Source: Tubulanus polymorphus
Taxonomy: Eukaryota; Nemertea; Palaeonemertea; Tubulaniformes; Tubulanidae
Assembly (NCBI RefSeq): GCF_964204645.1
Contig: NC_134031.1
Span: 5,687,001 to 5,751,000, forward strand
Direction of reading: 5' to 3'
DNA: 64,000 bases
A program made the position numbers and the translations under genes. A model generated the notes under the pieces. It saw nothing but the letters and a program-made list of their open reading frames with translations. It was not told the DNA's origin and ran no database searches. Below, piece after piece: positions 1 through 56,999 of this stretch. Position 1 is the stretch's first letter; every line of letters begins with the position of its first letter.

Positions 1-2858
1 TCACGGAGTAGCACGTACGTGTGGTGTAAGAAATTTTTCCGAAAGAAATTTTTACATCTTTTTTTTGACGCCGTAAAAATATGTTTTAAAACTGCCCACA
101 TATTTTTTATATAGCTTTCAGATTTGAGTAATGAATTTTACGTAACTGATAACTAGATTCATATAGTTAGTTAAAGATGTCAAAATCCATCAAATAACTG
201 GTGGACACGCCTCAAAATAGTTTATAATAAAAAATAAAAATGACCCAACAATGAAGGACAAAAGTATACCCAACAAAATGGCGGCTAGCAACTGAAGTGG
301 GTTTCTAAACGTTTCTAGACCCTTTGCTTGAAAGATCCGAGCCTGATTTCTCAATTCTCAATGGGAATCATTCCGGCAAAAATCCGAGGATAATCTCCTT
401 ATTTTGGTGACATATGGCGATCACGTTGAGTTGTCGTATAAATCTTATTCAGTATTAATCATAATTCGTGTCGCGGATAATAGTTACAGCCTTGTTTTAA
501 TGTCGCAATCAACACCAGCTGTAGAATCTGTCTCTTTTACTGCAATCACGTATTACTCTAATGCTGCTGTGTTTCCTTCTTTCTTATACAAAATAATATC
601 GATCCGAATTTCGATTTTCAAATCGTTCATTCTCGCTCTCAGAGAGGGTAGTGCATAGAAGGTTATTATCGTGGCCAGCGCCTCGTATATAGCGCGATTC
701 ATGAAGTAAAGAATGCCATGACAATACTTCACACCGTGACCAAAATATGCCAGTATTTACAGAGCTCCCCGAGTGGCTAGTAACAGGTGTTTTTAGGTGT
801 AACATCTCGTCGTATATAAATATCTACAGTGGGCAGATTCGTGGTGGTCCGAATTCACAACTCAACGGGATCCTTTATCAACATCTCTCCGAACAAATAC
901 GGTCAAATGTTTTCTTTTGCTGTGGACTTTCTGTGCAAAATAAGTGAATGTAGATTGAAATGAACTGAACAATACCGTATAGTTATAGGCGCTTGAAGAC
1001 GATTTTGCTCAACAGAGAAATAATCATAAGTATATAATAGCAAGCCTCAGTGGCTTGAATCTCAAAGAAAGATGTCTCTTTGAAACTAGAAGTTAAATTT
1101 AGATTCGAATCTTGGACAATTCGGGCAATATCCACACTTGACTGTAAAGGCTAGCTTATGTCGGGAAAAATTCCCAAGGAAAAAGGCCAAGGAAAAAATG
1201 GCCTCGGAAAAGGCCAAGACAGATTATATAGAAAACTAGCTATCATTTCATTAACTGCCGCGAATCTAAATGCAACCTTTTGACATGTTTCTTTTTGAGA
1301 TTATTAGACCAATTCCAGAATTAGTTTAGGTATCGACACAACTGGATATTGGCAACTGATTGGACACATTGGACTGGGTGTGTTTTGGCTGGCCGAACAC
1401 ACCCGGCATTATTTCATTTAATCGCGAACGTTTAAGGAAATATGGACTCATAGTCGTTCAAAGTGTAATAAATACTTAAAGCTAGCAAACAGAAACTATT
1501 GAAAATATCACGTATTCGCCGATACATCACGCGAATCAACACTAAACACTTACATCTGATAAGATACTAATGGCCTCTCATTTAGGGATCTATCCGCGAT
1601 CGATTTCAAAGGATAGATCCGCAGAACGATTACATACAAATAGAATAAATGTCTCGTTTAGTGCAAAGATTAAGATCTCCACGGTGGGTTTCAAATATTA
1701 GCTCATTCTCGCCATGAATGAAAATCGTTATATAATAATTCACCTTTGGTCTACAGCAATTGTAGGTAATAAAGTAGTTATCAGGCCAATTGTCGCATTG
1801 AATATAAGGCGGCGATTATTTAATTTTAATACGTTTTCTTTCACGCGAATAGGACATAAGAGGGTTGGGGTGGGTTTATATGAAGAATTATGTAGACAAT
1901 GTTTGGATTATAGAATTTTCGTGTTGTCGATTATATCGTGATTAATTGCGTTTATAGAGATTGACTTACGTATCAGGCGTAGAAGCAGTTTATATCAGTC
2001 ACTTGAAAGCAAAAAACTGTAAATAAATATAGAAAAGTTCTTAACCCATTACAAGAAGACTGAGTTTAAGTCAAATCATTAGTTTACGTATTTGTGATAA
2101 TATGTTATTTCAGGTTTTCAGTGAGGACTGGTTTTTTCATGAAACTGCTCCCAAAACCAGAATTTGGCCTTCTTAACATTGTGTTACTTCACATTCTAAG
2201 GGCTTATGATCTTATGATCTGATCCGCAAGTAAGTCAAATGCAAATGCCAGTTCGACCACTTCTCGTACGAAATTGATGCGCGACTGGCTGCAAAACCAG
2301 AAATCGCTAATTTATAGTTTGATTGTGAAGTAATCGAAAGGTATGGAAATATATCCACTGATTTAATTATTGTTTTTCGTTCGGAAACAGCTACAACGCA
2401 GTGGCTTCAATACCTTTTTATACCCGTGTGATTCCGTTATCTAATGCGCATTTCATAAAGGACCACGTGTATAACGAAAACATTTTTCTGTTTTAGAAAA
2501 AACAACCTTATATCCAATTTATTTTACGCGTATCTGTGTGTGTATGTGTACGTGTAGCCCTCGAGGAATGTATATTTAAATACAGACTGACATGTGACGA
2601 AAACGTGGAACATCAAAGAAAACACGATCAAACGTAAATCCATACCCAGAAACACAGATACACGAAATATTTCACCCAGATATATCAGTTATACGCATGT
2701 GAATTACGTTATTAAACACGTGTTCAACAATACAAAGATAACACTTTGTGAATTATACGTCGGAGATTGCGGTGAACATTTGGTGAACAATCGTTGAATT
2801 ATGTAAATGTTCTATAGTAATATGATAAGCGATTCGTCTTGAAGGGAATCGAGGTTCC
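1..2858. other. AT-rich region without recognised gene
   Basis: Only short open frames with no recognisable domain and no consistent splice structure. Around 64-80 it holds the head motif GACGCCGTAAAAA that also begins the interspersed repeat found at 2977, 26559 and 30512, so part of this stretch is probably decayed repeat. I see no tRNA, long coding exon or clear promoter. Confidence 0.5.
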
Positions 2859-2859
2859 C

Positions 2860-2985
2860 ATGTCGGCTCTGACAAAAGACGCCGTAAAGGCTGCGACTGC
2901 GGCCTCGAAGAATCGCTTGTTGATCGTTCCCTATGAGATCAGCGATGACAACGATATCGATTTAGGCGAAGAGCAAGTTTTTTAA
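2860..2985 (+). CDS. Candidate short ORF or terminal exon, unknown
   Basis: An ATG at 2860 opens 41 codons ending with TAA at 2983-2985; the frame stays open upstream to 2821. The product begins MSALTKDAVKAATAASKNRL and ends with an acidic stretch (DDNDIDLGEE). Composition is more coding-like (GC at third positions) than the surrounding DNA, which is the only argument for it. No polypyrimidine tract and no upstream exon were found, and I do not recognise the family. Its end abuts the start of an interspersed repeat, so it could equally be a fragment of a mobile element or chance. Confidence 0.2.
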   Translation: MSALTKDAVKAATAASKNRLLIVPYEISDDNDIDLGEEQVF

Positions 2986-3262
2986 ACCGTAAAAACCGTT
3001 ACAATACCGTTTATGTACATTGATACCTAGTATGCGTTATTTAAGGGTATCTGTGTGAGTCTATGTGCACTACGTCATCAATATTGGCGTGTCGAACTAT
3101 CAATAACAATTGTGAATCTTGGCATTCATTCTATATATGATTAAGATATATTTCATAGTTCTTATTTTCGATTTGATAAATTATCATGTCTTTCTAATAG
3201 CGAATTTTGAGTAGATGTGTCGTACGTCATCAATATTGAGGCTATAGACTGGTTGCCGGTCA
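2977..3262 (+). repeat. Interspersed repeat R1, copy 1
   Basis: Aligns along its length with the complement of 26283-26559 and 30292-30512. Shared landmarks in order are CCGTAAAAACCGTTACAATA near the start, TGCACTACGTCATCAATATT in the middle, AATTGTGAATCTTGGC, a second ACGTCATCAATATT, and GACTGGTTGCCGG at the end. No coding capacity; probably a short non-autonomous element. Confidence 0.8.
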
Positions 3263-3423
3263 ATTCAATTCAATTTAAGATCTATTGATCGGTGTTATTA
3301 AGGAGGTGGGAGTGAACTTCCCGGGTAATGCATCATATCATTCATGTCGATATTTTTCTCCAAGGCGTCAATAAACATTCAAGTGTGTATTCTTGTTATC
3401 GTGCATAAGTATGTTTTTGGCGA

Positions 3424-3540
3424 GGCATTTTATGTTAGCCGTCTCGCCTTCTTATCAGTCTAATACCCGTTTCTAGAGACGGGCGAGTGTATTGAACGGT
3501 ACTGAGCCCGATAAGAAGACGCCGCATAAAAATGATGATA
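3424..3540. repeat. Imperfect inverted repeat
   Basis: Arms around 3430-3456 (ATTTTATG, CGTCTCGCC, TTCTTATC) and 3509-3535 (GATAAGAAG, ACGCCGCATAAAAAT) are imperfect reverse complements around a GC-rich centre. Likely a small foldback element. Confidence 0.45.
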
Positions 3541-4436
3541 TGACTACGCATATAATATAGTACACAGTTATCGGAATCTGTCGGAGAAAAAAAAATCAAT
3601 TGAGCAGATTTTCTTATCTAGAAGGATGTTGATCGTGATTTAGTCGGAATGAGTGTCACATTAGTTGTAGAATGTGAGAACGGTAAACAGGCGCGCTGCT
3701 GCAACTGGTTGACAGGTCTTTTATAAAACCGTCAACGCGTTTGACATCTGATATCAGATGCAGATCGTATAATCAGCCACCGGCAAGCAGCAACTCGCGT
3801 TCGATACCGATATCTCATATATTGAAGAAATCCATCTAGACTTATCTTTATTTATATCCGCGAACCGGAAAGAAAAATGAATGTCGAATACGATCCGATT
3901 GTCCAGCCATTAGAACTGACACGAGTCTTAATTCCGGTTTATAGCCAGGGTCCCTTTTCTGCAGCGTTCAAAATGTTATCAGTTTTTATATACGGCATTT
4001 TCAATACTCATATGGTTTACATTTGATTTGAAACATACGGTTTTCCTAAGGAAGTTATACGTACTCAAATCAACGAATTGAATTCTGGATTCATCCCCGG
4101 AGCAGGTCGTACTTTCTACTATAAGGTGCTTAAAATAGTTCGAGACCTGAGCCTGTGGGGCCCCTTTGTATGGGTATATAGTAGGATATATTGTTACCTT
4201 TCGATTTACCCGGAGTGTGGGCCAATTCCACTTATTCTGCAAAATCTTGAACCGCTCTTTAACATGCAGTCGGCCGCGGTGCCTCAATTCCGAATATTAC
4301 AAGGGCGTGATGAAGGTGGTCCGTTTAATACTTCCGGTCGTAAGAGAAATAGCATGCGATGGTTTTGTTAGCAGGTCGTACGTTCGGTGCTGATCGCTAT
4401 CGGTCGACGTTTAACCATGGACACTTAACGATTCGT
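3541..4436. other. No recognised gene
   Basis: Overlapping short frames of about 100 codons lie on both strands at 3979-4371. None shows a known motif, a signal peptide or splice support, so I do not call a gene. The remainder is unremarkable AT-rich sequence. Confidence 0.5.
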
Positions 4437-4508
4437 TTTAACCATGGAATATAAAACAAATCGTTACTATAATTTATAGTAACGATTCGTTTTATATTCC
4501 ATGGTTTA
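4437..4508. repeat. Near-perfect 70-bp palindrome
   Basis: The left arm from about 4439 (ACCATGGAATATAAAACAAA) is matched by the right arm ending near 4506 (TTTTATATTCCATGG), with the centre at TATAATTTATA. Related CCATGG-ended hairpins occur at 5343-5416 and 11199-11236, so this is a recurrent foldback type. Confidence 0.8.
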
Positions 4509-4539
4509 ACCATTGACTCTATAACGTCCTACAGTCCAT

Positions 4540-4645
4540 GATCCAGTTCTACAATTGTGTTAAGATTTGACTCTGAATTAACTCATTGAAAATGAACTCA
4601 CTTCACTCCAGAGTTAACTCTAACTCATGACTGTGGAACTGGATC
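4540..4645. repeat. Palindromic repeat family A, copy 1
   Basis: Ends in complementary CCAGTTCTACA and TGTGGAACTGG segments with several GAGTTAA/TTAACTC blocks between. Related copies lie at 20531-20643, 56289-56408 and 63003-63106. About 105-120 bp and non-coding; a MITE-like foldback. Confidence 0.7.
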
Positions 4646-4869
4646 ATTGACTCATCGTTTTAGAGTAACCTACAAGCAACTAGTTTAGATAATTGCTCGT
4701 AGGAGTAACTCACACACGTATAAGGCGACAAGAATATATTCACTTTTGAACTGTTTCTTTCACACGATATGAAGGGACTTATATGAAAAGTGGACGATGA
4801 CACTTTTGGACCGAGGATAATTCTAATGTATAATCCTTTTGGAAAAACTGTTAGGCATATCTATATATG

Positions 4870-4965: not shown

Positions 4966-5249
4966 AGGATCCACCTCGCGGATCGGAACGGTGGCATAGC
5001 GCGGTTGCACATATTATTTTTCTCACGCGTGCGACAAAAAAACACCGACGCCGGATACAATTAATGGTATTACGCTCTATATTTTACGGTGTATGTAAAT
5101 AGATTAGCTGTTCTGTTTCCTGTCACCCGGCACCTTCTGATCTCAATTAATGTTTCCGGCTAGTCGTATTACCTTAGATATATAATGATAAGGCCTACGT
5201 TGTTTTCTTTGCATTTATGGAGGCGACATGTAAAAACACATAATATTGA

Positions 5250-5416: not shown

Positions 5417-5475
5417 TGGTAGCACGGATGAAACAGGAGTGTTTCAAGAGCTTGTTTGAATACATCGACGTTCCA

Positions 5476-5516
5476 ACTGGTGATGACTGTTTGTCAACAG
5501 CCGAAACGTTGTGGTT
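5476..5516 (+). ncRNA. Degenerate hammerhead-ribozyme-like motif
   Basis: TGATGA (5481-5486), a CTGTT/AACAG stem (5487-5500) and CCGAAACGTTGTGG (5501-5514) reproduce the order of a minimal type I hammerhead. The conserved C of CUGANGA is replaced by G and stem I is not formed. It is probably the relic of the element whose better copy is at 54236-54281; not expected to be active. Confidence 0.45.
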
Positions 5517-5559
5517 TCGTTTTAATGAATTATATATCGTATGAATATTCGAATTTTGG

Positions 5560-8330
5560 GACTTCTTCGATTATCTAGAGTGTACACGGATAAGAGTGTT
5601 TCATTCGACTAACTATCGACAGACATTGATGTATGCAAATAAATGCTCCAAATGATCTTAATATCGAGTTTCTTTCTCAATAGAGTTCGGCTCAGATGGT
5701 TCGGTAGATTCAGATACTACCTTCGCAACTTGTGAAAATCGTGACAGGTTTGTAAATTTCGCTATAAAGATATTGGGAAATTCCGTTACCATAGATACAT
5801 AAAAATAGGTGCAGCGAAGGCAAATTTGCCTGCTATCCCGAGAGAGGAGAATAGCGCGCTACGGTGACTGCCAACTTCAAAGGGCATGCTTTTAAGAATA
5901 TGTGCATTCTACGGAAAAGGTGTAAGGTTGTCAAATTCAACAATTACTATTAAAAAAATTATGAGTAGTGACATTTCAAATCATATCATTTCAACTCATT
6001 TCGGCTCATAGCATCAATATTCCCGTATATTCCCTAATAGTGTATATACATTATATACATTATGTTATTTCGGTTGCTCTGATGATGGAGTTTAGTCAAA
6101 AAATTTCAGAAAATGAATAATTTGAATCATCAACTTTGGGTTTTCACTTATCAACAAATTTCAAACAAAATTATAGGTTTTCTCTCTGAATTGAATCATA
6201 GACAGTCACCAAGTTTGGTTAATGTAGGCTAAGAATAGAATCTATGCATATATGGGAACATATAGCGAACGATTCGGTATAGAAAGAAATGCATGCAGAT
6301 AGTTTGTCACGGAATGCCTGTTGATTAGATTGTAGTGATGGGAATATTACGTGACTTGCGTCGCAAAATAACCAGACCAGCGCTTTGCGCTAATGAACGC
6401 GACCAATTACCCAAAATAACCCCTACGTTTTTCTATTGAACGTATGGCCAACTGAATATTGCCTGTTGTTAGAGTTGAGATAAATCACCTGTTCATCGGC
6501 GTTGCTTTCAAGTATTTGAAAATGTAGTTTGGCCCATTACTTTACCAGGATCAAACCAAACTCCTCTTCGGGCGCGTCGCGTCGCAGGAAGTACATGTAC
6601 AACTCACTGCGACTGGCGCTGGTGGTCGTGTCGCAGTGAGTCGCAAGCTGTGGTCCTTGTCGTCGTTTCAGGGAACAACTTGTCTTACAACTTTCATAAC
6701 ACACAAATATGATAAATGACGCTTAAGATGGCATCTTTTTCATCCATTAATAACTTATTGTTAGGATCCTCAGTATCCACCGTTGTTATCCTTTTTTTCA
6801 AAATACATAAAAAGAATTGATTCAAATTGTTTGTTTTAAAAGTAGTTCATAGTTTTCGTCGAAAAGCAAGCCTATATTGTTTGAATAAATATGAATTGAA
6901 TTGAATCAATCGTTAAACTATATACGGGCGGTTGGTGATTAAAGAATGGCTTCGGGTCTATGGATTAAGGGGAGTTTCGGGCCACGCCTCGGGTCATTCT
7001 GCCCTCCACTGCATCGATGATCTATTTTCGTCGGCATATCCCATCAAAGCCAACAATTGAACTATTATTCTGTGTTTTTGTTGTTGTTTTTCCATTGAAA
7101 ACGTCAGTTTGCGAAAATTGAAACTCGAAACTATGAATAAAACAAAGACGAGTGCGCCGCTAAAGCCCTGCCGATATGAAAACGGATATCTCAGAAAAAA
7201 ATGTTAATTTGATTGCTTTCCTCGGCCATGCATTGATCTGATAAATCTGACCGCCATACACAATGCAAAGACAGCCCGAGGATCGAGTGCCGCTCCGCGA
7301 ACGCCAGCTTTTCATTTTTGTATGCCATAGGCTTGAATTTTTTGATCGGGGTCTACATCTGCTACTTGCTTTTGATCTCATGAAACTATAAACGACAAGG
7401 AAATGATGTTTGGCATGGAAAGTAACATCGAGTATGTGAAGGAGAGGTCTCTCGCGCCGGGAAGGAGCCAATCAGCGTAAAGCATGAGCACGTATTAACT
7501 TCTACCTCGATAAACAAAATTGTCCCCATGTCACGCGTTATCATGGGCTAAGTCAGTTTCGAGTGCAAGTCAGACTTTATTTACCCCTTAACCTGTTCCT
7601 CAGTTGTGTATACATTTCGGTCCAGCTTGATTCAATTCTTCCCCCAGGTTGACCAACAGTTACCAATTTGATTTTGAATGGGCCAAGAGGGTCGTTTCAT
7701 AGAATGACTTAAGCTTCGTTTAAAGAAACCATTACCTCAGTGACAAGCACTTTCATCACGCGGGTCTTGAATTTCCAATCTATACAAACACGTGGCTTAC
7801 TAAAGCGTCGGCGATATATCTTAATCTTATAGCATTTACTTTTCTCTAGAGGTCAAAACTCGATGAGTTTAAACTGAAAGCAATTTTTCCCCGATCAAAC
7901 TGTTTCGGCGCGCGAAGGTTCGATGAACGCGCGATGAATAAACGATCAACACTTTTTAATCGTTCTACGAACACTCCGCCGCTATTCTCGTCTGAATTGA
8001 CGCGGAAAATCGCGATGAAAATCGCCGCCAAAAAATCGACGACTTCTGAGCAGCATTCGAGTTAAACCGAGTGGATAATTGGAACAAATTGCGGTAGACG
8101 TCTTACATCGCTTTCACCGGGGCAACACAACGACCCGAGCGGGAACGGCTCGTGCGTCAATTCTATACAGGGATAAATGTCTTTAATCACGAAGTCACAG
8201 AGAAACTCTTTTTTCTTCCGAACCATTTATGTATGAAATGTACAAGGCAAATGAATGACTTTGAGGTCGTAACAGATCAATGAAAATTGAGTTCGAATAC
8301 GCATTTTTCATTCTTAGGGGCCGGTTTAGT
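5560..8330. other. Mostly empty region with weak candidate exons
   Basis: No recognised gene. A plus-strand frame at about 7880-8067 follows an AG and ends in a stop; it is basic and serine/threonine-rich (for example ELTRKIAMKIAAKKSTTSEQ) and could be a terminal exon. A second frame ending near 7381 has a hydrophobic C-terminus (LIGVYICYLLLIS). Neither has a linked partner exon. At about 6610-6650 there is a short GCGAC-type inverted repeat (CACTGCGAC/GTCGCAGTG). Confidence 0.3.
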
Positions 8331-10804: not shown

Positions 10805-10825
10805 GTCTCTGTGGCGCAATCGGTC

Positions 10826-10871
<46 letters not shown>

Positions 10872-10878
10872 AGGGACG
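10805..10878 (+). tRNA. tRNA-Asn (anticodon GTT)
   Basis: A 74-nt cloverleaf. The acceptor arms GTCTCTG and CAGGGAC pair (one G-T), the D arm has GGCGCAATCGGTCAGCGC, and the anticodon loop CTGTTAA carries GTT at 10839-10841. The T arm has GGTGGTTCAAGCCCACC, which includes a good internal B box, and the discriminator base is G. No intron; CCA is not encoded, as expected in eukaryotes. Likely functional. Confidence 0.96.
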
Positions 10879-11410: not shown

Positions 11411-11431
11411 GTCTCTGTGGCGCAATCGGTC

Positions 11432-11477
<46 letters not shown>

Positions 11478-11484
11478 AGGGACG
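11411..11484 (+). tRNA. tRNA-Asn (anticodon GTT), second copy
   Basis: Identical over 74 nt to the gene at 10805-10878, with the same acceptor, D, anticodon (GTT) and T arms. The flanks show several substitutions, so the tRNA itself has been kept identical by selection or conversion. Intronless, no encoded CCA. Confidence 0.96.
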
Positions 11485-32930: not shown

Positions 32931-33383
32931 TTAATGTTTATTTTTTTTTGTTTCCGAACCATTTTCTATTTTTGACGATGAATCTCGCCTCAAGGTGACG
33001 CTGGGCGTTGAATTAAACGTGCTGTAATTTGATTCTCCCTCTCCGGTTCCGCCTCGTGACATTCCGCCCGTAAAATTCAGTGGCAGCAACAATAAACCGC
33101 TACAAATCAATAATAACAACCCTCTACGCGTAAATAACGATAGTTTTTGGCGCTGAAAGCTTGCGAGAATAGTCCTTCTATACCCATCGCCAAATGAGTA
33201 GAGGAGTTCAAAATACGTGCATACCAAATAAAAGGCAGCTTGCGAAATCAGATTCGATTGTGCAATCATTATGGTACACACTAAGAAAGGCGATTCGTTT
33301 AAAATGGGAACAGCTACAATCGTCCATGACGTCACAAGAAAGAAACGTAATTCCTCACGTAACCAATCCGGAAGTGGGTTCAT
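32931..33383 (-). pseudogene. MATE transporter copy with large internal deletion
   Basis: Starts like the intact MATE genes (MNPLPDWLREELRFFL, then SNLISQAAF) and ends like them (SRGGTGEGES, RRDSSSKIENG), but is only 150 codons. Against its neighbours an 11-bp deletion shifts the frame after LLYSFG, a second small deletion restores it before RGLLLLICSG, and about 1 kb is missing after LPLNFT, removing most transmembrane helices. The frame is still open, which is unusual, but a working transporter is not possible. It is the 3'-most unit of the array; its 5' splice-acceptor region is kept near 33482. Confidence 0.88.
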
Positions 33384-33443
33384 TTCCCCTTCCTGTTGCT
33401 TGTTGGTTTTTCCTATTTTACTGATCTTGTTCAAACCGGGCAC

Positions 33444-34883
33444 ACGAAATGCTGTAACACTGAATCAACGAGATTTATTGTCCTGACATTAACATAAAAC
33501 ACTTTCAAATGGTTTATTAAGATGTGAGCATTCACTAAAACGTGCTTAGTATTTGCAGATGCAAACAAACAAATTGTCTGCTTCAAACAAAGAAAAATTG
33601 TTTTTACGATCTCTCTCTCGCTCACTCGAAACTAGAATATAATATTTCTAAATATAAAGATTTCTGGTTTATTTTATACAATCATGATCTTCTTCTATCT
33701 ATTTACAGTATCTATATAAAAAGGCACTTTTCTCATATAGCGAACATCAAACACGCTATACGCGCTCTTTAAGTTCTTCTCTCCGTTTAGTATGTAAACG
33801 ACACCTTTTTCGGTAAATCGTGTTCCTCCCTCAGAAAACCGTTCGCTTTATATTATGCAAATACATGTCTAGTCGAAAATTTTTTTTCGAATATATATGC
33901 GTCATATTGATGACACACCTGATATTTCTGAATATGATATAATCTGATGATGATTAGCTATTGTCTAGCATATATGCGATATGTATATAAGTATAAATAT
34001 GCAGTAACATTAATCAGAGTCAGTTTATATCTAATCTTATTCTATTCATCGTTTTGCATGATTATGGATGCTAAAACCTATAATTCTGGTTCGTGTATGA
34101 ATGTGTTTAGAATCCTCTTACATTCCAAAAATTTGCATCGCAAATTGATACGTCACCATTATGTTTTAATCGTCTTTTTAAAACAAAACACTTAGTAACG
34201 GTCGAATGTTTGCAAATTTGGTGGGGATTCCGAGGTAAGGGGAAATAATCAATCAATCATGAATCACGAATCATCATTTTGGAGCGGCGAAAGAAATCAG
34301 TGAATATATGTCGATGATATTGATGATATGAAATGATATGATGAATCCATGTATGTGATGAATGTATACCAGTCGGGACAAAAGGGTGAATTGCATTGTG
34401 TAGTGGCAGTTACAGCTCTAGCACATAAAAGGAATGATTTAATGATGTTCTAACTTTCCAAACTTCGGTGAAAGATTCCTCAAACCCAAAATTTTATAAA
34501 AACAAGCTGCAGAATATCGTTGTATGTTGTTCTTTTATTTGTATCTCGCTCAAGAGTGTGGCGTGTGCGATAACCATCTCTTTACAGAAATCCCCTATAT
34601 CTAAAACTGCCGCGGCGCGTCCTAATCTAAATCCTATTGATTAACACTATTTTGGAAATATGCTTCTATTTGTTACGTCGATGTGCTGTTCTTGTGAACA
34701 TCAATTCCGGACATATCCCAAAAGGTGTTAAGTGTTTGTGCTAAGTTAGAGAGAATGCTGGAGTCAAAATCTGGCTTGAGCATTTTCTCAAGGTTGCAGA
34801 ATAGTTTTCCAAATCATAGTAAGTGCTAATTGCAATCCGGAGAAACCGAAGAGACGGAAGAATGAGTCAAAATTATTTTTGAT
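33444..34883. other. Flanks of MATE array units
   Basis: From about 33450 to 34880 the sequence corresponds to the 5' flank of the deleted copy (ACCTTTTTCGGTAAATCG, TCCTCCCTCAGAAAACCG at 33800-33845), followed by the 3' flank of the next gene. Much of it aligns with the spacers at 36430-38131 and 39720-41198. No other gene seen. Confidence 0.6.
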
Positions 34884-36368
34884 TTATTGTATGGTTTGTG
34901 GACCATTTTCTATTTTTGACGATGAATCTCGCCTCACGGTGGCGCTGGGCGTTGAATCAAACGTGCTGTAATCCGATTCTCCCTTTCCGGTTCCGCCTCG
35001 AATTGACTTCCGATCGTCTGTGGTTCTGTGACGCGCAAGTCTAGATTGTTCGTCCCAATCTAAAACAAATAGGGCGTACGGAACGAATATCAACGAATTT
35101 AAAACACATGAACTCTGGAATCCGATTATGACACTTATAGCACCTAACCGAGCAAAATACAATAGAATCAATCCTAACGATGTTCCTATTGTTAAATTCA
35201 CGAAACACGTTGTTGTTATTATGGATATTTTAGCGCATCCTCGAATTGCTGCATTAAACATCATGTCTACAGCAAATAAGGGCAAAGTTGCTCCAATGTA
35301 CAGAAGCATAACTTTCAGTTTGGCTTCGACCAAACTATTGCTAGCAAGTCGCAGAGCTAAAACAGCGTGAAGCGAACAAATCAATACACCGATAACTACA
35401 GCGACCATGATCGAAATACCCTGATAAAAGAACAAAGCTCGTTTGGCTGTACGACCGTCCCTGGATGATAACAGGAAACCAACTCTCATACAACACGCCT
35501 CCGATATGCCCCATAATATATTGTAGTTGAAGTAGATTACTTGCAACGAGACGCTCAACGCTACAAGTCCAATCACTCCAAAAGTGCCGGTCGAGAAAAC
35601 ACCGATTGTCAGAGCTGTCGTGATACACATTGTTGATACTGTAGACCCGAGAGCCATACTAGCGACCTCCCGTAGATTCTTAAATATGTCCATATTAGTT
35701 CTGTATATAGCGATAGTGTCTTTATTGGCCAGAGAAGATCCAATAGCCATGCAAACTGCATTGAGGACAAAAAATACGAGTAAAGAGATGGCCGCCCCTA
35801 GACTGGCCAAATGTAGTACAATAACCGTGACGTAACAGATTACCGCGGTGAAAACGCTGTTGAATATTGCTACAACAACGACCGGTTTAACAATATCCTG
35901 AGACATTAAAAAACGCGTAAAAATATCATTCGCGAGCACAAAAATGTTATCAGGTGACATCACCATCAGCATCCTTCCAGCTTCCTCAGCAACGGTTGCA
36001 TTTTGTCCGAAAAGTATGAATATTTTGTCGGCAGTGAAATTCAGTGGCAGCAACAATAAACCGCTACAAATCAGTATTAACAACCCTCTTTGTAACAACA
36101 AGCGTAAATAACGATAGTTTTTAGCGCCGAAAGCTTGCGAGAATAGTCCTTCTATACCCATCGACATACCCATGCCAAATGAGTAAAGAAGTCCAAAAAA
36201 CGTACTTAATAAAGAAAAGGCGGCTTGCGAAATCAGATTTGATTGTGCAATCATTATAGTGCACACTAAAAAAGGCGATTCGGTCAAAACGGGAACAACT
36301 ATAATCGGCCATGACGTCACAAGAAAGAAATGCAATTCCTCGCGTAACCAATCCGGAAGCGGTCTCAT
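34884..36368 (-). CDS. MATE-family multidrug/organic cation transporter 1
   Basis: An uninterrupted coding frame of 494 aa. MATE (SLC47-type) proteins exchange protons or sodium for organic cations across plasma or organelle membranes. About twelve hydrophobic segments are visible. The first half carries GLFSQAFGAKNY and LLLQRG, and the second half carries the equivalent ISEACCMRVGFLLSS, both characteristic MATE positions. The C-terminus is a cytosolic tail (WDEQSRLARHRTT and a Ser-rich end). I start at the ATG of MRPLPDWL (36368), matching both neighbours; the longer frame upstream opens only with GTG. A good acceptor, TTTCAG|GAC, lies just upstream at about 36462, so the gene probably has a 5' UTR intron. 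It is part of a tandem array with roughly 3.1-3.2 kb spacing. Confidence 0.93.
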   Translation of the reverse strand: MRPLPDWLREELHFFLVTSWPIIVVPVLTESPFLVCTIMIAQSNLISQAAFSLLSTFFGLLYSFGMGMSMGIEGLFSQAFGAKNYRYLRLLLQRGLLILICSGLLLLPLNFTADKIFILFGQNATVAEEAGRMLMVMSPDNIFVLANDIFTRFLMSQDIVKPVVVVAIFNSVFTAVICYVTVIVLHLASLGAAISLLVFFVLNAVCMAIGSSLANKDTIAIYRTNMDIFKNLREVASMALGSTVSTMCITTALTIGVFSTGTFGVIGLVALSVSLQVIYFNYNILWGISEACCMRVGFLLSSRDGRTAKRALFFYQGISIMVAVVIGVLICSLHAVLALRLASNSLVEAKLKVMLLYIGATLPLFAVDMMFNAAIRGCAKISIITTTCFVNLTIGTSLGLILLYFARLGAISVIIGFQSSCVLNSLIFVPYALFVLDWDEQSRLARHRTTDDRKSIRGGTGKGESDYSTFDSTPSATVRRDSSSKIENGPQTIQ

Positions 36369-36428
36369 TTCTCCTTCCCGTTGCTTGTTGATCTTTCTTA
36401 TGTCAATGATCTTGTTAGAATTGAGCAC

Positions 36429-38131
36429 ACTTCCGCCTCATGAATCTTCAAGACTAATCGTCCTGAAATGAGCATAACATACTTTCAAATGGTTTACTAA
36501 GATGTGAGTATTCACTTAAACCATTTTAATATTTGCAGATGCAAACACACAAACCGTGTCCTTCAAACAAAGAAAAACTGGTTTTGTGATCATTTCTAAG
36601 GATTTCAGAACAAAAATGACAGTTTTGGAAGACATGCAGGCAATTTGGCTTAAAAAAAGCGTGTCCAAAAAATCGAAAACCTCATTGGACTGAACATTTG
36701 ATTTGATTATTGTAAAAATTATTTTAGAATATAAAGATTTTATGGTTTACCTTACGATCAAGATCTCACTATTTAGAAAAGGCAGGTTTCTCGTATATCG
36801 AACGTCACACACGCCCAGCGCTCAAAAGCCTGGCTTTTGTCGACAAGCGACGCGACGCCTACCGACTCCTACCGACGCAACTGAGAACATACTGTACCTT
36901 GATATTTCTTCTCGCCATTTGGAATGTAAACGGTACCTTTTCGACGAATCATAGTCCTCCCTCTGAAAACCGTTTCGCTATTCGATAACACTGAACTATC
37001 GCTTTCGTTTGAACTTATTCCGTTATGAATTGCCCTATGCGGACAGTGAAAATCAATTTTGAATGTAGATTACGCCTACTGTGTAAATATTAAGTCGAAA
37101 AAACTTTTGGACTCTATAAGCGTCATATTGATGACACACCTGCTATTTCTGAACGTAATATCATCTGATGATTATCAGCTATTGTCAAGTGCGATATGTA
37201 TGTAATATATATTTGTAGTAACAGTAATAAGAGTCAGTTCGTAGTTTTTATCTAGTTTTATTTCACTCATCGTTTTACATGATTACGGATTCTAAAACCT
37301 ATTATTCTGGTTCGTGTATGAATGCGTTTAAAATCCTCTTACATTTCAATACTCTGCATGGCAAATTGATATGTCACATCGTGTTTAATCTTATTTTTAA
37401 CAAGTACAACACATACGTAACACAAAGAAACAGTCGACTGTTATCAAATTTGGCGGGGGGATTCCGAGGTGGGGAAAGATTCAATCAACCATGAATCATG
37501 AATCATAGTCTTGGACCAGTGAAAGAAATCAGTGATTTTATGATTTTATTAGGTATATGATATTGATGATATGAAATGATGAATCCTCGACTGCGATGAA
37601 TGTATACCTGTAGTAAGTCGACGTCATCGGTACGAAATAGTGAATTGCACTGTGTATAGAGGCAGCTACGACTCTACACATAAAAGGAATAATCATGATG
37701 TTTTCACTTATTAAACTTCGGCGAAAGAATCCTCAATGCCGAAATGATGTTAACACAGGCTGCAGAATATATATCATTAAATGTTGTTCTTATATTTGTC
37801 TATAGCTCGGAGCGTGGCGTGTTCAATTCTCATCTCTTTACAAAAATTCCCTAAATCTATACATCTATGGTGTGCCTAACTTCCATTGTTTATTTCTACT
37901 TCGAAAATATATTCCTATATGAAGGTCGATGTGCTGCTCCTGTGAACATATCCCAAAAGGGCTTAAGAGTGTGTGCCAAGTTAGATAGAATTCTAGAGAC
38001 AGTCTGAATCTGGCTTGAGCATTATCTCAAGGTTGGAGATTAGTTTTCTCAATCGTAGTTAGTGCTAATTGCAATCCAAAGAAACTGAAGAAAATGGAAG
38101 AATGATTAAATTCGGTTAGGCTATTTTTGAT
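36429..38131. other. Spacer between MATE genes 1 and 2
   Basis: 5' flank of gene 1, then 3' flank of gene 2. It holds the conserved GC-rich block described at 36790-36965. Long segments align with 39720-41198, showing that whole gene-plus-spacer units were duplicated. No other gene seen. Confidence 0.65.
36790..36965 (-). promoter_or_regulatory. Conserved upstream block of MATE gene 1
   Basis: A GC-rich island within AT-rich spacer (ACACGCCCAGCGCTC, GCGACGCGACGCCTACCGAC) followed by GGAATGTAAACGGTACC and TCCTCCCTC. The same block lies upstream of MATE gene 2 (40063-40250), and its AT-side half lies upstream of the deleted copy (33735-33850). On the minus strand it holds AAG|GT sites that could serve as donor to the acceptor near 36462, so it may combine promoter and 5' UTR exon. 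Confidence 0.45.
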
Positions 38132-39616
38132 TTATTGTATGGTTTCTAAACCTTTTTCTATTTTTGACGATGAATCTCGCCTTACGGCGGCGCTGGGCAT
38201 TGAATCAAATGTGCTGTAATCCGATTCTCCCTTTCCGGTTCCGCCTCGAATTGACTTCCGATCGTCTGTGGTTCTGTGACGCGCTAGTTTAGATTGTTCG
38301 TCCCAATCTAAAACAAATAGGGCGTACGGAACGAATATCAACGAATTTAAAACACATGAACTCTGGAATCCTATTATCACACTTATAGCACCTAACCGAG
38401 CAAAATACAATAGAATCAATCCTAACGATGTTCCTATTATTAAATTCACGAAACACGTTGCTGTAATTATGGCTATTTTAGCGCATCCTCGAATTGCTGC
38501 ATTAAACATCATGTCTACAGCAAATAAGGGCAAAGTTGCTCCAATGTACAGTAATATATATTTCAGTTTGGCTTCGACTAAACTATCAGTTGCAAGTCGC
38601 AGAGCTAAAACAGCGTGAAGCGAACAAATCAATACACCGAGAACTACAGCGACCATGATCGAAATACCTAGATAAAAAAACAAAGCTCGTTTGGCCGTAC
38701 GACCGTCCCTGGATGATAACAGGAAACCAACTCTCATACAACACGCTTCCGATATGCCCCAAAATATATTGTAGTTGAAATATATTACTTGCAACGAGAC
38801 GCTCAATGCTACAAGTTCAATCACTCCAAAAGTACCGGTCGAGAAAACACCGATTGTCAGAGCAGTCGTGATACACATTGCTGATGCTGTTGACCCGAGA
38901 GCCATACTAGCGACCTCCCATAGATTCTTAAATATGTCCATATTAGTTCTGTATATAGCGATAGTGTCTTTATTGGCCAGAGAAGATCCAATAGCCATGC
39001 AAACTGCATTGAGGACAAAGAATACGAGTAAAGAGATGGCCACCCCGAGACTGGCCAAACGTAGTACAACAACCATGACGTAACAGATTACTGCAGTGAT
39101 AACGCTGTTGAATATCGTTACAATAATGACCAGTTTAACAATATCCTGAGACATTAAAAAACGCGTAAAAATATCATTCGCGAGCACAAAAATGTTATCA
39201 GGTGACATCACCATCAGTATCCTTCCGGCTTCCTCAGCAACGGTTGCATTTTGTCCGAAAAGTATAAATATTTTGTCGGCTGTGAAATTCAGTGGCAGCA
39301 ACAATAAACCGCTACAAATCAGTAATAACAACCCTCTTTGTAACAACAAGCGTAAATAACGATAGTTTTTAGCGCCGAAAGCTTGCGAGAATAGTCCTTC
39401 TATACCCATCGACATACCCATGCCAAATGAGTATAGGAGTCCAAAATACGTGCATACCAAAGAAAAGGCGGCTTGCGAAATCAGATTGGATTGTGCAATC
39501 ATTATGGTACACACTAAGAAAGGCGATTCGTTTAAAACGGGAACAACTACAATCGGCCATGACGTCACAAAAAAGAAACGTAATTCCTCACGTAACCAAA
39601 CCGGAAGTGGTTTCAT
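38132..39616 (-). CDS. MATE-family multidrug/organic cation transporter 2
   Basis: A 494-aa intronless coding region starting at MKPLPVWLREEL (ATG at 39616). It has the same length and domain layout as the gene at 34884-36368 and is very similar to it, with both MATE signature regions intact (GLFSQAFGAKNY; ISEACCMRVGFLLSS). Differences are mainly conservative hydrophobic changes in the helices, so substrate range could differ slightly. The 5' acceptor TTTCAG|GACAATGAATC (about 39719) and the GC-rich upstream block are present. No frame damage. Confidence 0.93.
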   Translation of the reverse strand: MKPLPVWLREELRFFFVTSWPIVVVPVLNESPFLVCTIMIAQSNLISQAAFSLVCTYFGLLYSFGMGMSMGIEGLFSQAFGAKNYRYLRLLLQRGLLLLICSGLLLLPLNFTADKIFILFGQNATVAEEAGRILMVMSPDNIFVLANDIFTRFLMSQDIVKLVIIVTIFNSVITAVICYVMVVVLRLASLGVAISLLVFFVLNAVCMAIGSSLANKDTIAIYRTNMDIFKNLWEVASMALGSTASAMCITTALTIGVFSTGTFGVIELVALSVSLQVIYFNYNIFWGISEACCMRVGFLLSSRDGRTAKRALFFYLGISIMVAVVLGVLICSLHAVLALRLATDSLVEAKLKYILLYIGATLPLFAVDMMFNAAIRGCAKIAIITATCFVNLIIGTSLGLILLYFARLGAISVIIGFQSSCVLNSLIFVPYALFVLDWDEQSKLARHRTTDDRKSIRGGTGKGESDYSTFDSMPSAAVRRDSSSKIEKGLETIQ

Positions 39617-39719
39617 TTCTCCCTCCAGTAGCTCTGTCGCTTGTTTTACCGATTTTGTTCAAACCGAGCACACGAAATTCTGTTTCACTTCTGCCTCATG
39701 ATCAACAAGATTCATTGTC

Positions 39720-41198
39720 CTGAAATGAACATTACACACTTTCCAATTACTTATCAAGGTGAGAGTGTTCACTTTACGTGTCCTCCAAAGACAGAAAACC
39801 TTGTTTTTATTATTCTCTCTGACACTCGATACGAGCTTTATTTTCAATTATTGTATCTTATCATTTCTAAGGATTTCAGGACAAAAAAATACAGTTTTGG
39901 AAGACATGCAGGAAACTTGACTCAAAAAGTGTCTCCAAAAAATAGAAAACCTCATTGAACTGAACATATGAATTGATTATCATAAAAGATATAGTAGAAT
40001 ATAAAGATTTGCGATTTAGCTTATAATCAAAATATAACTATTTAGAATATATATAAAAGACACTTTTCTCGTATATCGAACGTCACACACGCCCAGCGCT
40101 CGAAAGCCTGACTTATGTCGACAAGCAACGCGACGCCTACCGACTCCTACCGACGCAACTGATAACAGTCATACGTTACCTTGGTAGATCTGCTTGCCAT
40201 TTAGGATGTAAACGGCACCTTTTCGTCGAGTCGTGGTCCTCCCTCAGAAAACCGTTTCACTATTTTGATAACACTGAACTATCACTTTCGGTCTAAGTGT
40301 ACATATTGGCGCCTAATAATACGTAAATGTCTAGTCGAAAAACATTTTCGACTATACCAGCGTCATATTGTGATAACACACCTAATACTTCTGAATGTAA
40401 TATTCAATCCGATGATAATCAGCTATTGTCATATATTTATATATGTACGTAGTTACAGTAATAAGAGTCAGTCAGTTTATATCTAATCTTAATTTATTCA
40501 TCGTTTTACACGATGATGAATTCTGAAACCTATTATTATGGTTCGTGTATGAATGCGTATAGAATCCTCAACGTTTCTATGCGGTGAGGGGAATTATTCA
40601 ATTGAATCTATCATGAATCGTGAATTATCATTTTGAACCGTTGAAAAGAAATCAGTGATTATTTGTATATGATATTGATGATATGATGAATACAGCACGT
40701 ATCGGAAGAAATGAATACCTCCAGTAAGTCGACGTATTTCCTTACTTGACTAAAAGAATCCTAAATCCCAAAATGATATTAACACAGCAGCAGATATATA
40801 GTTATATGTTGTTCTTTTATTTGTATCTCGCTCAAGAGTGTGGCATGCGCAATTCTTATCTGTTTACAAAATTACCCTATTATCTAAAACTCCCGCGACG
40901 CGTCCTAATCTGAATCCAATCGGTTAAATCTAATTCGAAAGTATGTTTCTATTTGTTGGGTCAATATTTTGCTCCTGCGAACATCATATGATTCTAGACA
41001 TAGCCCAAACGGTGTTAAGAGTAACGGTGTTAAGAGTTTGTGCCAATTTAGTTAGATAGAATTCTAGAGACAGCCTGAATCTGGCTTGAGCATTATCTCA
41101 AGGTTGGAGAATAGTTTTCCAAATGATAGTTTGTGCGAATTGCGATCCGAAGAATTGGAGGCGGATGAATGAAAAATGAAGTCAAAATTATTTTTGAT
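39720..41198. other. Spacer between MATE genes 2 and 3
   Basis: Aligns in long stretches with the preceding spacer, including the GC-rich block (40063-40250, with TCGACAAGCAACGCGACG) and the region just downstream of gene 3 (CTCGCTCAAGAGTGTGGC at about 40827). A short internal duplication of GGTGTTAAGAGT occurs near 41012-41036. No gene seen. Confidence 0.65.
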
Positions 41199-42686
41199 TT
41201 ATTGTATGGTTTCTGAGCCATTTACTATTTTTGATGATGAATCTCGCCTCACGGCGGCGCTGGGCGTTGAATCAAACGTGCTGTAATCCGATTCTCCTTT
41301 TCCGGTTCCGCCTTGAATTAACTTCACATCATGTGTAGTTCTGTGACGCGCTAGTTTAGCTTGTTCGTCCCAATCTAAAACAAATAGGGCGTACGGAACG
41401 AATATCAACGAATTTAAAACGCACGAACTCTGGTATCCGATTATCACACTCATAGCACCTAAGCGTGTAACGTATAGTAGAATCAGACCTAACGATGTTC
41501 CTAGTAGTAAGGTCACTAAACACGTTGTTGTAATTATGGCTATTTTAGCGCATCCTCGAATTGCCCCATTAAATATAACATCCACAGCAAAAAGGGGCAT
41601 AGTTGCTCCAATGTACAGAAATATAAATTTCAGTTTGGCTTCGACCAAACTATCAGTGGCAAGACGCAGAGCTAAAACAGCGTGAAGCGAACAAATCAAT
41701 ACACCGAGAACTACGGCGACCATCATCGAAATACTTTGATAAAAGAACAAAGCTCTTTTGGCTGCCTGACCGTCCCTGGATGATAACAAGAAACCAACTC
41801 TCATACTACACACTTCCGCTATGCCCCATAATATATTGAGGTTAAAATATATTACTTGCAACGAGACGCTCAATGCTACAAGTTCAACCGCTCCAAACGT
41901 ACCGGTCAAGAAGATACCGATTGTCAGAGCTGTCGTGATACACATAACTGATACTGTTGACCCGAAGGCCATACAAGCGACCTCCCATAGATTCTTAAAT
42001 ATGTCCATATTAGTTCTGTATATAGCGATAGTGTCTTTATTGGCCAGAGAAGATCCAATAGCCATGCAAACTGTATTGATGCAAAAAAATACGAGTAAAG
42101 AGATGGCCGCACCTAGACTGGCCAAACGTAGTACAACAACCATGACGTAACAGATTACCGCGGTGATAACGTTATTCAAAATTGCTACAACAACGACCGG
42201 TATAACAATATCCTGTGCCATCAAAAAACGCGAAAAAAGAGCATTTGCGAGCACAAAAATGTTATCGGGTGACATCACCATCAGCATCCGTCCAGCCTCC
42301 TCAGCAACGGTGGCATTTTGTCCGAAAAGCACGAATATTTTGTCGGCTGTGAAATTCAGTGGCAGCAACAATAAACCGCTACAAATCAGTATTAACAATC
42401 CTCTCTGCAACAACAAGCGTAAATAACCATAGTTTTTGGCGCCGAAAGCTTGCGAGAATAGTCCTTCTATACCCATCGACATACCCATACCAAATGAGAA
42501 GAGTAGTCCAAAAAGCGTGTCTATAAGAGAAAAGGCGGCTTGCGAAATCAGATTCGATTGTGCGACCATTATAGTACACGTTAGAAGAGGCAAATCGGCT
42601 AAAACAAGAACAGTAAGAACCGGCCATGACGTCCCGAAGAAGAAATGTAATTCCTCTCGTAACCAATCTGGAAGTGCTTTCATCAT
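41199..42686 (-). CDS. MATE-family multidrug/organic cation transporter 3
   Basis: A 495-aa intronless coding region starting MMKALPDWLREELHFFFGTS. It shares the array's MATE signatures (GLFSQAFGAKNY; a variant IAEVCSMRVGFLLSS) and Ser-rich C-terminus, but is the most divergent of the three, especially in the first 60 residues (ADLPLLTCTIM) and around helix 4 (LANALFSRFLMAQ). Its upstream DNA does not carry the GC-rich block or the TTTCAG|GAC acceptor of the others, so its promoter probably differs. It is the 5'-most intact unit in the direction of transcription. Confidence 0.92.
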   Translation of the reverse strand: MMKALPDWLREELHFFFGTSWPVLTVLVLADLPLLTCTIMVAQSNLISQAAFSLIDTLFGLLFSFGMGMSMGIEGLFSQAFGAKNYGYLRLLLQRGLLILICSGLLLLPLNFTADKIFVLFGQNATVAEEAGRMLMVMSPDNIFVLANALFSRFLMAQDIVIPVVVVAILNNVITAVICYVMVVVLRLASLGAAISLLVFFCINTVCMAIGSSLANKDTIAIYRTNMDIFKNLWEVACMAFGSTVSVMCITTALTIGIFLTGTFGAVELVALSVSLQVIYFNLNILWGIAEVCSMRVGFLLSSRDGQAAKRALFFYQSISMMVAVVLGVLICSLHAVLALRLATDSLVEAKLKFIFLYIGATMPLFAVDVIFNGAIRGCAKIAIITTTCLVTLLLGTSLGLILLYVTRLGAMSVIIGYQSSCVLNSLIFVPYALFVLDWDEQAKLARHRTTHDVKLIQGGTGKGESDYSTFDSTPSAAVRRDSSSKIVNGSETIQ

Positions 42687-42961
42687 CGTCTTATGCTCTT
42701 TTTTCTCCTCAATAACCGATGTTTCTTCAAGTATGTCCGTGTTTTGTTTATTTCAGAGATAGATTATCAGTTCAACCATGGACCCTGAAACTATTTGGAG
42801 TCAGTAGTTTTAATTTCGAGTACTGCTCGACGTCGTGTTCGCGCTCCGAATGTATATTGAATATATACAGAATGTATACACGCATTTCATTGGTCATAAT
42901 CGTTTAATGCGCCAGACAGCTCAAGGATAAAAATGGAATCCATATAAATCCTGACATCATC

Positions 42962-53479: not shown

Positions 53480-54140
53480 TCCGCATTCAACAAAACGTGA
53501 AAAATATTCAATTGGACTGATAGGTGTAAACGCATTTAACACGCAGCTGTAAGTTTCTCTCGAGGAAGGTTGCGCACTATTGATACTCGCACTTAACAGT
53601 GGTTTGAATGCACTGTGTTGGCGACTGTTCGTATTACTGTAAATATTTTGTAGAATAAATTTTTCATCGAATGAACTTTCGCGTGTTATTTGCTGGATTT
53701 TGCTCAAGTTCTTAATAATTGGAATATGAAAGCTTTTTCTGAGAACACCCAGTTTCTTCTTATGACGATTCAGTAGTTGGAGATAAAGGAAGCCATTAGT
53801 GCATGCACACTGCAAGGGGTAAGCGAGTGAGGGGTATGAATTCACAAGAACAAATTCACAATTTCTCGGCCATATTTTGGATAATTCACGATCCATCGCT
53901 GCGGAAGATGAAGCAAACTTCAACAAAACTTCAATCCTCTTAAAACCCGACGTATGTACCTTTTGACATGGTTTTGAAGGGTAAAACCGGCCACTCCACA
54001 TGTCGTTTAGGAAACTACCTTTTTAAGGACTGCCTCATACCGGTGTCATTTTAAAGTTTACAGGTTCGAATTTTGGTCGAGTAATAATCTGTGTGAAAGT
54101 TGTCAAATAAACACTATAATCCGTGTATACTGTAGATAAT
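53480..54140. other. POLR2D 3' flank
   Basis: 3' UTR and downstream sequence; AATAAA occurs at about 53654. A long open frame on the minus strand (53429-54001) overlaps POLR2D exon 4 but shows no domain and is treated as chance. Confidence 0.5.
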
Positions 54141-54334
54141 TGAAGAAATGCCACACTTCGAATTTAAATTATATGATCAAATTTATTATTATGAAACCAC
54201 AACGTTTCGGCTGTTGACTAACAGCCATCATCATTCCACCTGATGATGGCTGTTAGTCAATAGCCGAAACGTTGTGGTTTCCTAATAATAAATTTGATCG
54301 TATAATTTTAAGTTCGAAGTGTGGCATTTCTTCA
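54141..54334. repeat. 194-bp palindrome bearing two opposed hammerhead motifs
   Basis: The ends TGAAGAAATGCCACACTTCG and its exact reverse complement (ending 54334) bound arms of about 90 bp. Each arm contains GAAACGTTGTGGTTTC preceded by a GGCTGTTAGTCAA-type stem and TGATGATG. The hammerhead on the plus arm is near-canonical; the minus arm has the conserved C changed. Such units are known as parts of Penelope-like elements; no reverse transcriptase or GIY-YIG frame is nearby. Confidence 0.88.
54236..54281 (+). ncRNA. Minimal type I hammerhead ribozyme
   Basis: Stem I is CCAC (54236-54239) with GTGG (54274-54277). The core CTGATGA is 54240-54246. Stem II is GGCT (54248-54251) with AGCC (54262-54265) and a loop of about ten bases. 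GAAA is 54266-54269, and stem III is the self-complementary ACGT (54269-54272), with T at 54273 as the cleavage-site base. A loop-less, self-complementary stem III is the feature of minimal hammerheads thought to act as dimers. One extra base (T54247) sits between the core and stem II; the relative at 54437 has an extra base at the same place. Activity is inferred, not shown. Confidence 0.75.
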
Positions 54335-54436
54335 TTTAATCTGTGTGAAAGTTTACTGCAAAAACGTCAAGGCCAACATTTTGATCTTAAACATTAACTC
54401 CTAAAGCCCTACATGTTCACCATATTGAATCAACAC

Positions 54437-54471
54437 CTGAAGAAGACTTGTGTGACAGTCGAAACAGTTGG
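54437..54471 (+). ncRNA. Second hammerhead-like motif, diverged
   Basis: CTGAAGA (54437-54443), one extra A, stem GACT (54445-54448) with AGTC (54457-54460), then GAAAC (54461-54465) and AGTTGG. Core residues are intact, but stem I forms at most one pair, so activity is doubtful. Direct orientation with the motif at 54236, about 200 bp apart. Confidence 0.55.
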
Positions 54472-56408: not shown

Positions 56409-56456
56409 ATATGAGGAGTTATAATAGAGATAATTTCAAGGAGTGTCTGCATCACT

Positions 56457-56752
56457 GCTGGACCCATATCCGCAGATATTGGTCAGACTGAAAGAAAATG
56501 AACCGTTGAACTGGGTGCTGGACCCTATCCGCAGATATTGGTCAGACTGAAAGAAAATGAACCGTTGAACTGGGTGCTGGACCCTATCCGCAGATATTGG
56601 TCAGACTGAAAGAAAATGAACCGTTGAACTGGGTGCTGGACCCTATCCGCAGATATTGGTCAGACTGAAAGAAAATGAACCGTTGAACTGGGTGCTGGAC
56701 CCTATCCGCAGATATTGGTCAGACTGAAAGAAAATGAACCGTTGAACTGGGT
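56457..56752. repeat. 59-bp minisatellite, five copies
   Basis: Units 56457-56516 (60 bp), then four of exactly 59 bp (56517-56575, 56576-56634, 56635-56693, 56694-56752), otherwise identical. The first unit starts GCTGGACCCATATCCGCAG; the others have CCCTATCC. One frame of the first unit reads DPYPQILVRLKENEPLNWVL, which is suggestive of coding, but the 59-bp period breaks the frame in later units. It lies between the convergent POLR2D and CDF genes. Confidence 0.97.
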
Positions 56753-56999
56753 GCTATAGGCCGCCATTCTCTCTGTTACAATCTTCACAATTGTTTTTAA
56801 CACAAATAGGCTGAGATTAGCAAATCTCAATTCATTGAACATCAAATCGAATTAAGAATTTTTATCGACTTGACTCTGTTGTAATACAACGTTTCTGGAT
56901 GAAAGCGATAATCTAGATTAAGCGGGTTTGACTGTGGAGGTATTCCGATATCAGTTACCGGCGCATTTCACATATAACATACAAAAACAGCATACCCAT

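Follow-up and report, generated by a model that had tools for sequence, protein, structure and literature searches.

Background

Hammerhead ribozymes are widespread in Penelope-like elements (PLEs). The closest described relatives of the motif reported here are the minimal PLE hammerheads of Cervera and de la Pena (2014), as they are portrayed in parts of two later papers (PMC6155905, PMC7229834), the first of which describes them as lacking helix III. The motif studied here comes from a 64,000-nt stretch of the genome of the nemertean Tubulanus polymorphus (contig NC_134031.1, positions 5,687,001 to 5,751,000, forward strand), referred to as the window. It has the same type I order, the same minimal form without a real helix III and the same location in a pseudo-LTR (pLTR), and is set apart from the published descriptions, to the extent of those parts, by an extra nucleotide and by a host belonging to the Nemertea. 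A very short or palindromic stem III is also found in the dimeric hammerheads of newt and axolotl, which, according to parts of the same two papers (PMC7229834, PMC6155905), are active mainly as dimers; these are tandem repeats with loop-loop contacts, whereas the Tubulanus copies are arranged head-to-head.

Inverted insertions have been described for the Penelope elements of Adineta vaga. Parts of PMC3846280 report an inverted pLTR pair in which the inverted copy is 37 bp shorter, a 31-bp tail on one inverted pLTR, duplications of 8-10 bp and palindromes at inverted junctions, and, of two-sided priming and self-priming on an antisense template, favour the latter. The Tubulanus locus has inverted pLTRs, a one-sided tail, duplications and junction palindromes in common with them; in contrast, the hammerhead goes unmentioned in those parts of the paper, and the insert in the window has no ORF. 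In PAc, a Poseidon element of Anolis carolinensis, the protein cuts and extends both DNA strands in vitro, the tail is the stretch between two reverse transcriptase (RT) start sites, and the hammerhead, placed at the pLTR/ORF junction, has been shown to cleave, with protein (PMC11167929). The hammerhead in a pLTR context and the tail recur in Tubulanus, where the architecture of the insertions would fit cutting and extension of both strands.

A limited literature search led us to recognise no report of hammerheads in nemertean PLEs. An extra core nucleotide, between A9 and stem II, reportedly occurs in the hammerhead of Chrysanthemum chlorotic mottle viroid, in work attributed to De la Pena and Flores in 2001; it is likewise a natural extra core nucleotide, in a viroid and not in a retroelement. 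Nemertea and hammerhead appear together in PMC10886601, the latter, in the part of that paper at hand, only in the title of a reference.

Results and Discussion

A minimal hammerhead in the window

The elements of a hammerhead core follow each other at 54236-54277 in the order claimed for them by the initial annotation of this DNA. They are listed here with a second, looser string.

54236-54277, plus strand: predicted minimal type I hammerhead (from sequence, genome pattern, chance control and covariation)
54236-54239 and 54274-54277, plus strand: stem I, CCAC/GTGG, 4 bp
54240-54246, plus strand: core CTGATGA
54247, plus strand: extra T between the CTGATGA core and stem II
54248-54254 and 54259-54265, plus strand: stem II, GGCTGTT/AATAGCC with loop AGTC, 7 pairs including one G-U
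54266-54269, plus strand: GAAA
54269-54272, plus strand: loopless self-complementary ACGT in place of stem III
54273, plus strand: T at the cleavage position, predicted cut 54273/54274
54437-54470, plus strand: hammerhead-like string CTGAAGA-A-GACT..AGTC-GAAAC, single copy

CUGANGA and GAAA stand in type I order with an NUH triplet at the cut site, and both stem I and stem II are paired. The earlier description of stem II as GGCT/AGCC was correct for its outer four pairs, the full helix having seven. A stem III with a loop is absent from the window motif, and the ACGT could pair only between two copies, in keeping with the earlier assignment to the minimal type I hammerheads of PLEs with a loopless self-complementary stem III. 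On both strands of 150 random 64-kb windows (first-order Markov) there was no motif in which stem II had 6 bp or more and stem I 4 bp or more; the real window contains one, that at 54236. Together with the genome-wide pattern count given below, this rules out a chance origin, and the sequence is a real hammerhead motif of the 3'-terminal pLTR of a PLE.

The string at 54437 had been put forward as a relative of this motif with A as its extra base. We found no support for that relationship: a genome search returned a single candidate, the string itself, and it lacks even a 3-bp stem I. By chance alone, motifs of such looseness should turn up 0.04 times per window, and a kinship with PLEs is unproven for the string.

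Families with an extra nucleotide

The whole genome (267.8 Mb) was searched with the degenerate core pattern ACCTGANGANGGYT-N10-ARCCGAAACGT, in which one extra base is included. This gave 202 exact matches (108+94) and none with the reversed control (0+0); the same pattern without the extra base had 0 matches. The proposal that the extra base is a lineage feature is upheld by these counts, and only the appeal made to the 54437 string has to be dropped from it. A looser pattern, in which position 7 could be A, C or G, stem II was free and the extra base optional, had 666 matches and its control 2, and the extra base was T in all of the matches listed except two, which carry C.

Most of the looser-pattern matches listed come from a second family, in which stem II is GATCTC/GAGATC and whose hammerhead in locus L093 combines ACAC/GTGT as stem I with a GTC cut site. 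A third family is represented by L072 (stem II GACTAT/ATAGTC, stem I TTATTC/GAATAA), where the motif has a tandem PLE copy on either side; the protein of these copies shows 62% identity to that of the intact element L032 described below. Two of these three nemertean families are tied to PLE proteins, and the third to the same insertion architecture. Positions 1-701 of L093 are a palindromic second-family copy with its own tail of about 40 nt and a 14-nt duplication, TAGAGTGCTGAGAT.

All three families have a complementary stem I, namely CCAC/GTGG, ACAC/GTGT and TTATTC/GAATAA, the first two helices having three of their four pairs in common. This complementarity argues against the reading that the hammerhead likeness is accidental, that the repeat needs only the hairpin of stem II (for protein binding or RT initiation) and that it never cleaves RNA, as does the cleavage of the Anolis hammerhead with protein (PMC11167929). 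The invariant core letters are no evidence on this point, being for the most part prescribed by the search patterns. An accidental likeness would suit loci L068-L070, in which stem I is weak or, by eye, essentially absent, as well as the extra base and the missing stem III loop, and it would also suit the blank Rfam result and the insertion ends away from the cut site that are reported below. Taking both sides, we regard it as unlikely.

Covariation was evaluated over 53 rows, made up of the 51 distinct 35-nt strings among the matches listed, the L072 motif and the window motif; two 33-nt strings from the looser pattern were left out. The search fixed parts of the outer stem II in first-pattern rows and did not do so in looser-pattern rows. 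Stem II was paired in 84.4% of cells compared with 66.1% in shuffles that ignore relatedness among rows, and double-sided changes numbered 114 compared with 43.9 ± 10.9, a value that 0 of 500 shuffles reached; slid controls gave at most 35. In 30 of the 53 rows the innermost of the seven pairs is not formed, and without it 91.2% of cells are paired. Two measures stayed within the shuffles, namely pairs changed on both sides (128/500) and pair types (93/500). Two large families account for most of the double changes, which leaves few independent events, and from these few events stem II appears to covary strongly.

Covariance models and phage contigs

The covariance-model check suggested earlier for this motif was negative: Rfam placed no hammerhead in 54231-54285 even at E values up to 10, nor at the other thresholds tried. 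With 73 of 34410 candidates in the genome scored, the best RF00163 match reached 22.4 bits, short of the cut-off of 34, and the L093 motif obtained 13.9 bits from the type I model, likewise under the cut-off of 34. Among viral contigs, the pattern with the extra T was present in 20 stretches (L073-L092) and the pattern without it in 22. In 14 of the 20 and in 13 of the 22, stem I was complementary over 5 bp or more, against 6% in the shuffled control for both; several of the 14 extra-T motifs are identical or nearly identical to each other. Since stem I is complementary in these phage-contig motifs, a full hammerhead fold can accommodate the extra T. In motifs of the L078 type (e.g. L078 4418-4451) stem III is closed by TTCG. 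At the gathering threshold, Rfam recognised no hammerhead at the motifs of 13 of the 20 extra-T viral loci, and its only hammerhead hit in those 13 was at L075 4638-4729, away from the motif; six extra-T viral loci were equally blank at E up to 1. Because Rfam is also blank at extra-T motifs of phage contigs with complementary stems, the negative result in the window carries little weight. No PLE relatives were found in the viral contigs.

What is new here is a predicted hammerhead whose extra nucleotide is, under the pattern searched, fixed across PLE families in a nemertean, an indication that ribozymes of this sort are under-counted with standard covariance models. A broader proposal, which we offer as a tentative one and consider rather doubtful, is that hammerheads with an extra nucleotide between A9 and stem II form a distinct, maintained subclass that Rfam tends to miss, present in at least three nemertean families and in phages; in PLEs they would stand at the 5' end of the RNA and have a role there other than template excision, perhaps only as dimers or with the PLE protein.

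A palindromic insertion with a one-sided tail

The window motif lies inside a palindrome, as had been noted, 54137-54338 matching its own reverse complement at 91%. The earlier description left out that the palindrome belongs to a PLE insertion, with a tail and a target-site duplication, and that it competes with the ribozyme fold.

54098-54338, no strand assigned: whole short PLE insertion, two inverted pLTR copies and a one-sided tail; its ends recur in other loci
54085-54101, plus strand: target-site duplication, left copy, 17 nt identical to 54337-54353, overlapping the tail end; 15 nt by script
54337-54353, plus strand: target-site duplication, right copy, identical to 54085-54101
54098-54134, minus strand: tail, an extension of about 37 nt at the 3' end of one inverted pLTR copy, on one side only
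54135-54233, minus strand: inverted pLTR arm, its hammerhead lacking C3 and the 5' strand of stem I and reading AATGATGA
54241-54338, plus strand: direct pLTR arm without a tail, hammerhead from U4 on

C3 and the 5' strand of stem I are located in the centre of the palindrome (54236-54240), and the minus-strand hammerhead of the left arm is incomplete. The insertion is short and has no ORF; as in PLEs, its pLTRs are direct and inverted, with a tail and a duplication. At least 81 matches to palindromic copies were found in the genome (40 of 639 candidates scored). In 17 of 20 other palindromic loci (L009-L028) the outer ends agree within 5 nt, the exceptions being L012, L018 and L025. Flanks outside the palindromes are unrelated in most loci; L021, L022 and L026 have flanks in common. 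By script, the target-site duplication measures 11-15 nt in 14 of these 20 loci and 7 nt in L021 and L026, and there is none in L009 and L027; L025 and L028, which do not have the end pattern used by the script, were not scored.

A pLTR partner on the opposite strand was present, within the stretch fetched, in 26 of the 39 loci behind 40 tail hits, and the tail is carried by either arm, depending on the locus. Among 41 adjacent inverted pairs, 11 have the same inner junction, arm start 250 joined to arm start 260 with a 3-nt overlap, and the remaining junctions differ, some having gaps of up to 120 nt. Since the junctions vary and either arm can be tailed, the palindromes point to repeated events in which two cDNAs were joined at their ends, and not to the copying of one master, with the reservation that some palindromes of the commonest junction (250/260) could descend from palindromic masters.

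Near-perfect inverted arms in a short non-coding unit are also what a foldback or MITE-type DNA transposon with an incidental hammerhead-like hairpin would present. A duplication of variable length (11-15 nt where scored in full) and a tail on one side only rule out a MITE origin, and, the arms being the pLTR of an element with RT and GIY-YIG domains, any such transposon is an extremely improbable source.

An intact element with the same pLTR

Locus L032 contains an intact ORF (2715-4856) for a 713-aa protein with the Pfam domains RVT_1 and GIY-YIG, that is, the RT and GIY-YIG protein of a PLE within the same element as the pLTRs.

L032, 2359-2495 and 5116-5252: direct pLTRs, before and after the ORF
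L032, 2190-2318: inverted pLTR, at the left end
L032, 2235-2265, minus strand, and 5115-5145, plus strand: hammerheads

The sequence CTTCCGGCAC is present on both flanks. In contrast to Anolis PAc, the sense hammerhead of L032, a predicted one, is found some 260 nt downstream of the ORF stop, and the upstream direct pLTR has a degenerate copy. The protein has at least 66 matches in the genome (63 of 1558 candidates scored); its nearest database relatives are at 55%, and crustacean ones at 36-39%. In L051, about 266 nt of the element's own 3' end are inverted at the left and joined to RT-coding sequence. A 39-nt stretch at the inverted-pLTR junction of L032 (2325-2363) is a 97% match to 1146-1184 in the left flank, about 1.2 kb off, inside an open frame that by eye resembles a GPCR; judged from this match, the junction stretch looks like templated end joining.

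Insertion ends and the predicted cut

We collected 40 tail-bearing insertions with a query lacking the 5' end and placed their 5' ends on a reference. Fifteen of the 40 fall at 250-252, at least one of them a duplicate since L021 and L022, both at 250, have common flanks; four fall at 259-262 and four at 286-291. The ends pile up at TCATTCC, 7-9 nt before C3, which we take to be a putative initiator. None of the 40 is at the predicted start of the cut product (292-294). The four ends at 286-291 (L036, L042, L043 and L057) start 2-6 nt upstream of the cut; they represent three events, because L042 and L043 have flanks in common, and could partly be explained by chance matches at the joint. With 0/40 ends at the predicted cut and 4/40 at 286-291, cleavage does not define the inserting RNA, and we reject the idea that it sets the insertion ends. 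Insertion would mostly have used RNA uncut at the hammerhead, often starting just before it, in agreement with in vitro work in which uncut RNA was the main substrate for insertion (PMC11167929). The genome provides several PLE hammerhead families and hundreds of copies in addition to this test of insertion ends.

The palindromic RNA folds freely at -150.8 kcal/mol (z -27.9), with 92 pairs in a long hairpin, and at -98.3 kcal/mol when stems I and II are forced, a cost of 52.5 kcal/mol. The isolated motif folds at -14.3 kcal/mol and the hammerhead stems alone at -12.1, the former value being lower because RNAfold adds non-hammerhead pairs between the core strands. In these models the arms swallow the ribozyme and the palindrome probably keeps the window copy from folding; the motif being locked into the long hairpin, cleavage of the window copy is unlikely. 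On PLE RNA, the motif of the family probably acts as a weak, dimer-forming or protein-assisted ribozyme.

The same results weigh on the reading of the palindromic insertion as itself a working, retrozyme-like mobile RNA that is cut and circularised by its hammerhead. Its size of about 240 nt, low GC content and long duplications resemble those of animal retrozymes, as presented in part of PMC7229834, and the palindromic copies are many. Tandem short repeats with a canonical type I hammerhead, the mark of animal retrozymes, are not what we see, the copies being head-to-head in the loci seen and the motif minimal; moreover, the motif is buried in the 92-pair hairpin, from which forcing the stems is costly, and no tail-bearing end coincides with the start of the cleavage product, against 15 at 250-252. 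We hold this reading to be highly unlikely.

A model for the insertion

The motif, the inverted architecture, the tail, the duplications, the intact PLE with the same pLTR and the stem covariation are, in our judgement, very probably explained by a PLE pLTR hammerhead in a short ORF-less insertion built from two joined cDNAs, the arms of which lock the window copy. The PLE protein, with its RT and GIY-YIG endonuclease, would cut the target on both strands, and both DNA ends would prime cDNA synthesis on the element RNA, one cDNA starting at the tail end and the other about 37 nt further in. Both cDNAs would stop just upstream of the hammerhead and then be joined, and the product would carry the pLTR twice, head to head, along with a tail on one side and a duplicated target site. 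We infer two-sided priming and end joining from the architecture and from the published in vitro work on the Anolis PLE; the present data do not set two-sided priming apart from self-priming on an antisense template.

Other features of the window

A decayed relative of the same palindromic insertion is found at 5463-5627, with 75-79% identity. Two tRNA genes of equal score (10805-10878 and 11411-11484) are 606 bp apart. Three long and one short similar open frames follow each other on the minus strand at 32931-42752; the frame at 34884-36434 codes for a MATE transporter, the close relatives of which, among the matches listed, are all from Tubulanus or the window. Finally, a 59-bp unit is repeated in five near-perfect tandem copies at 56456-56755.
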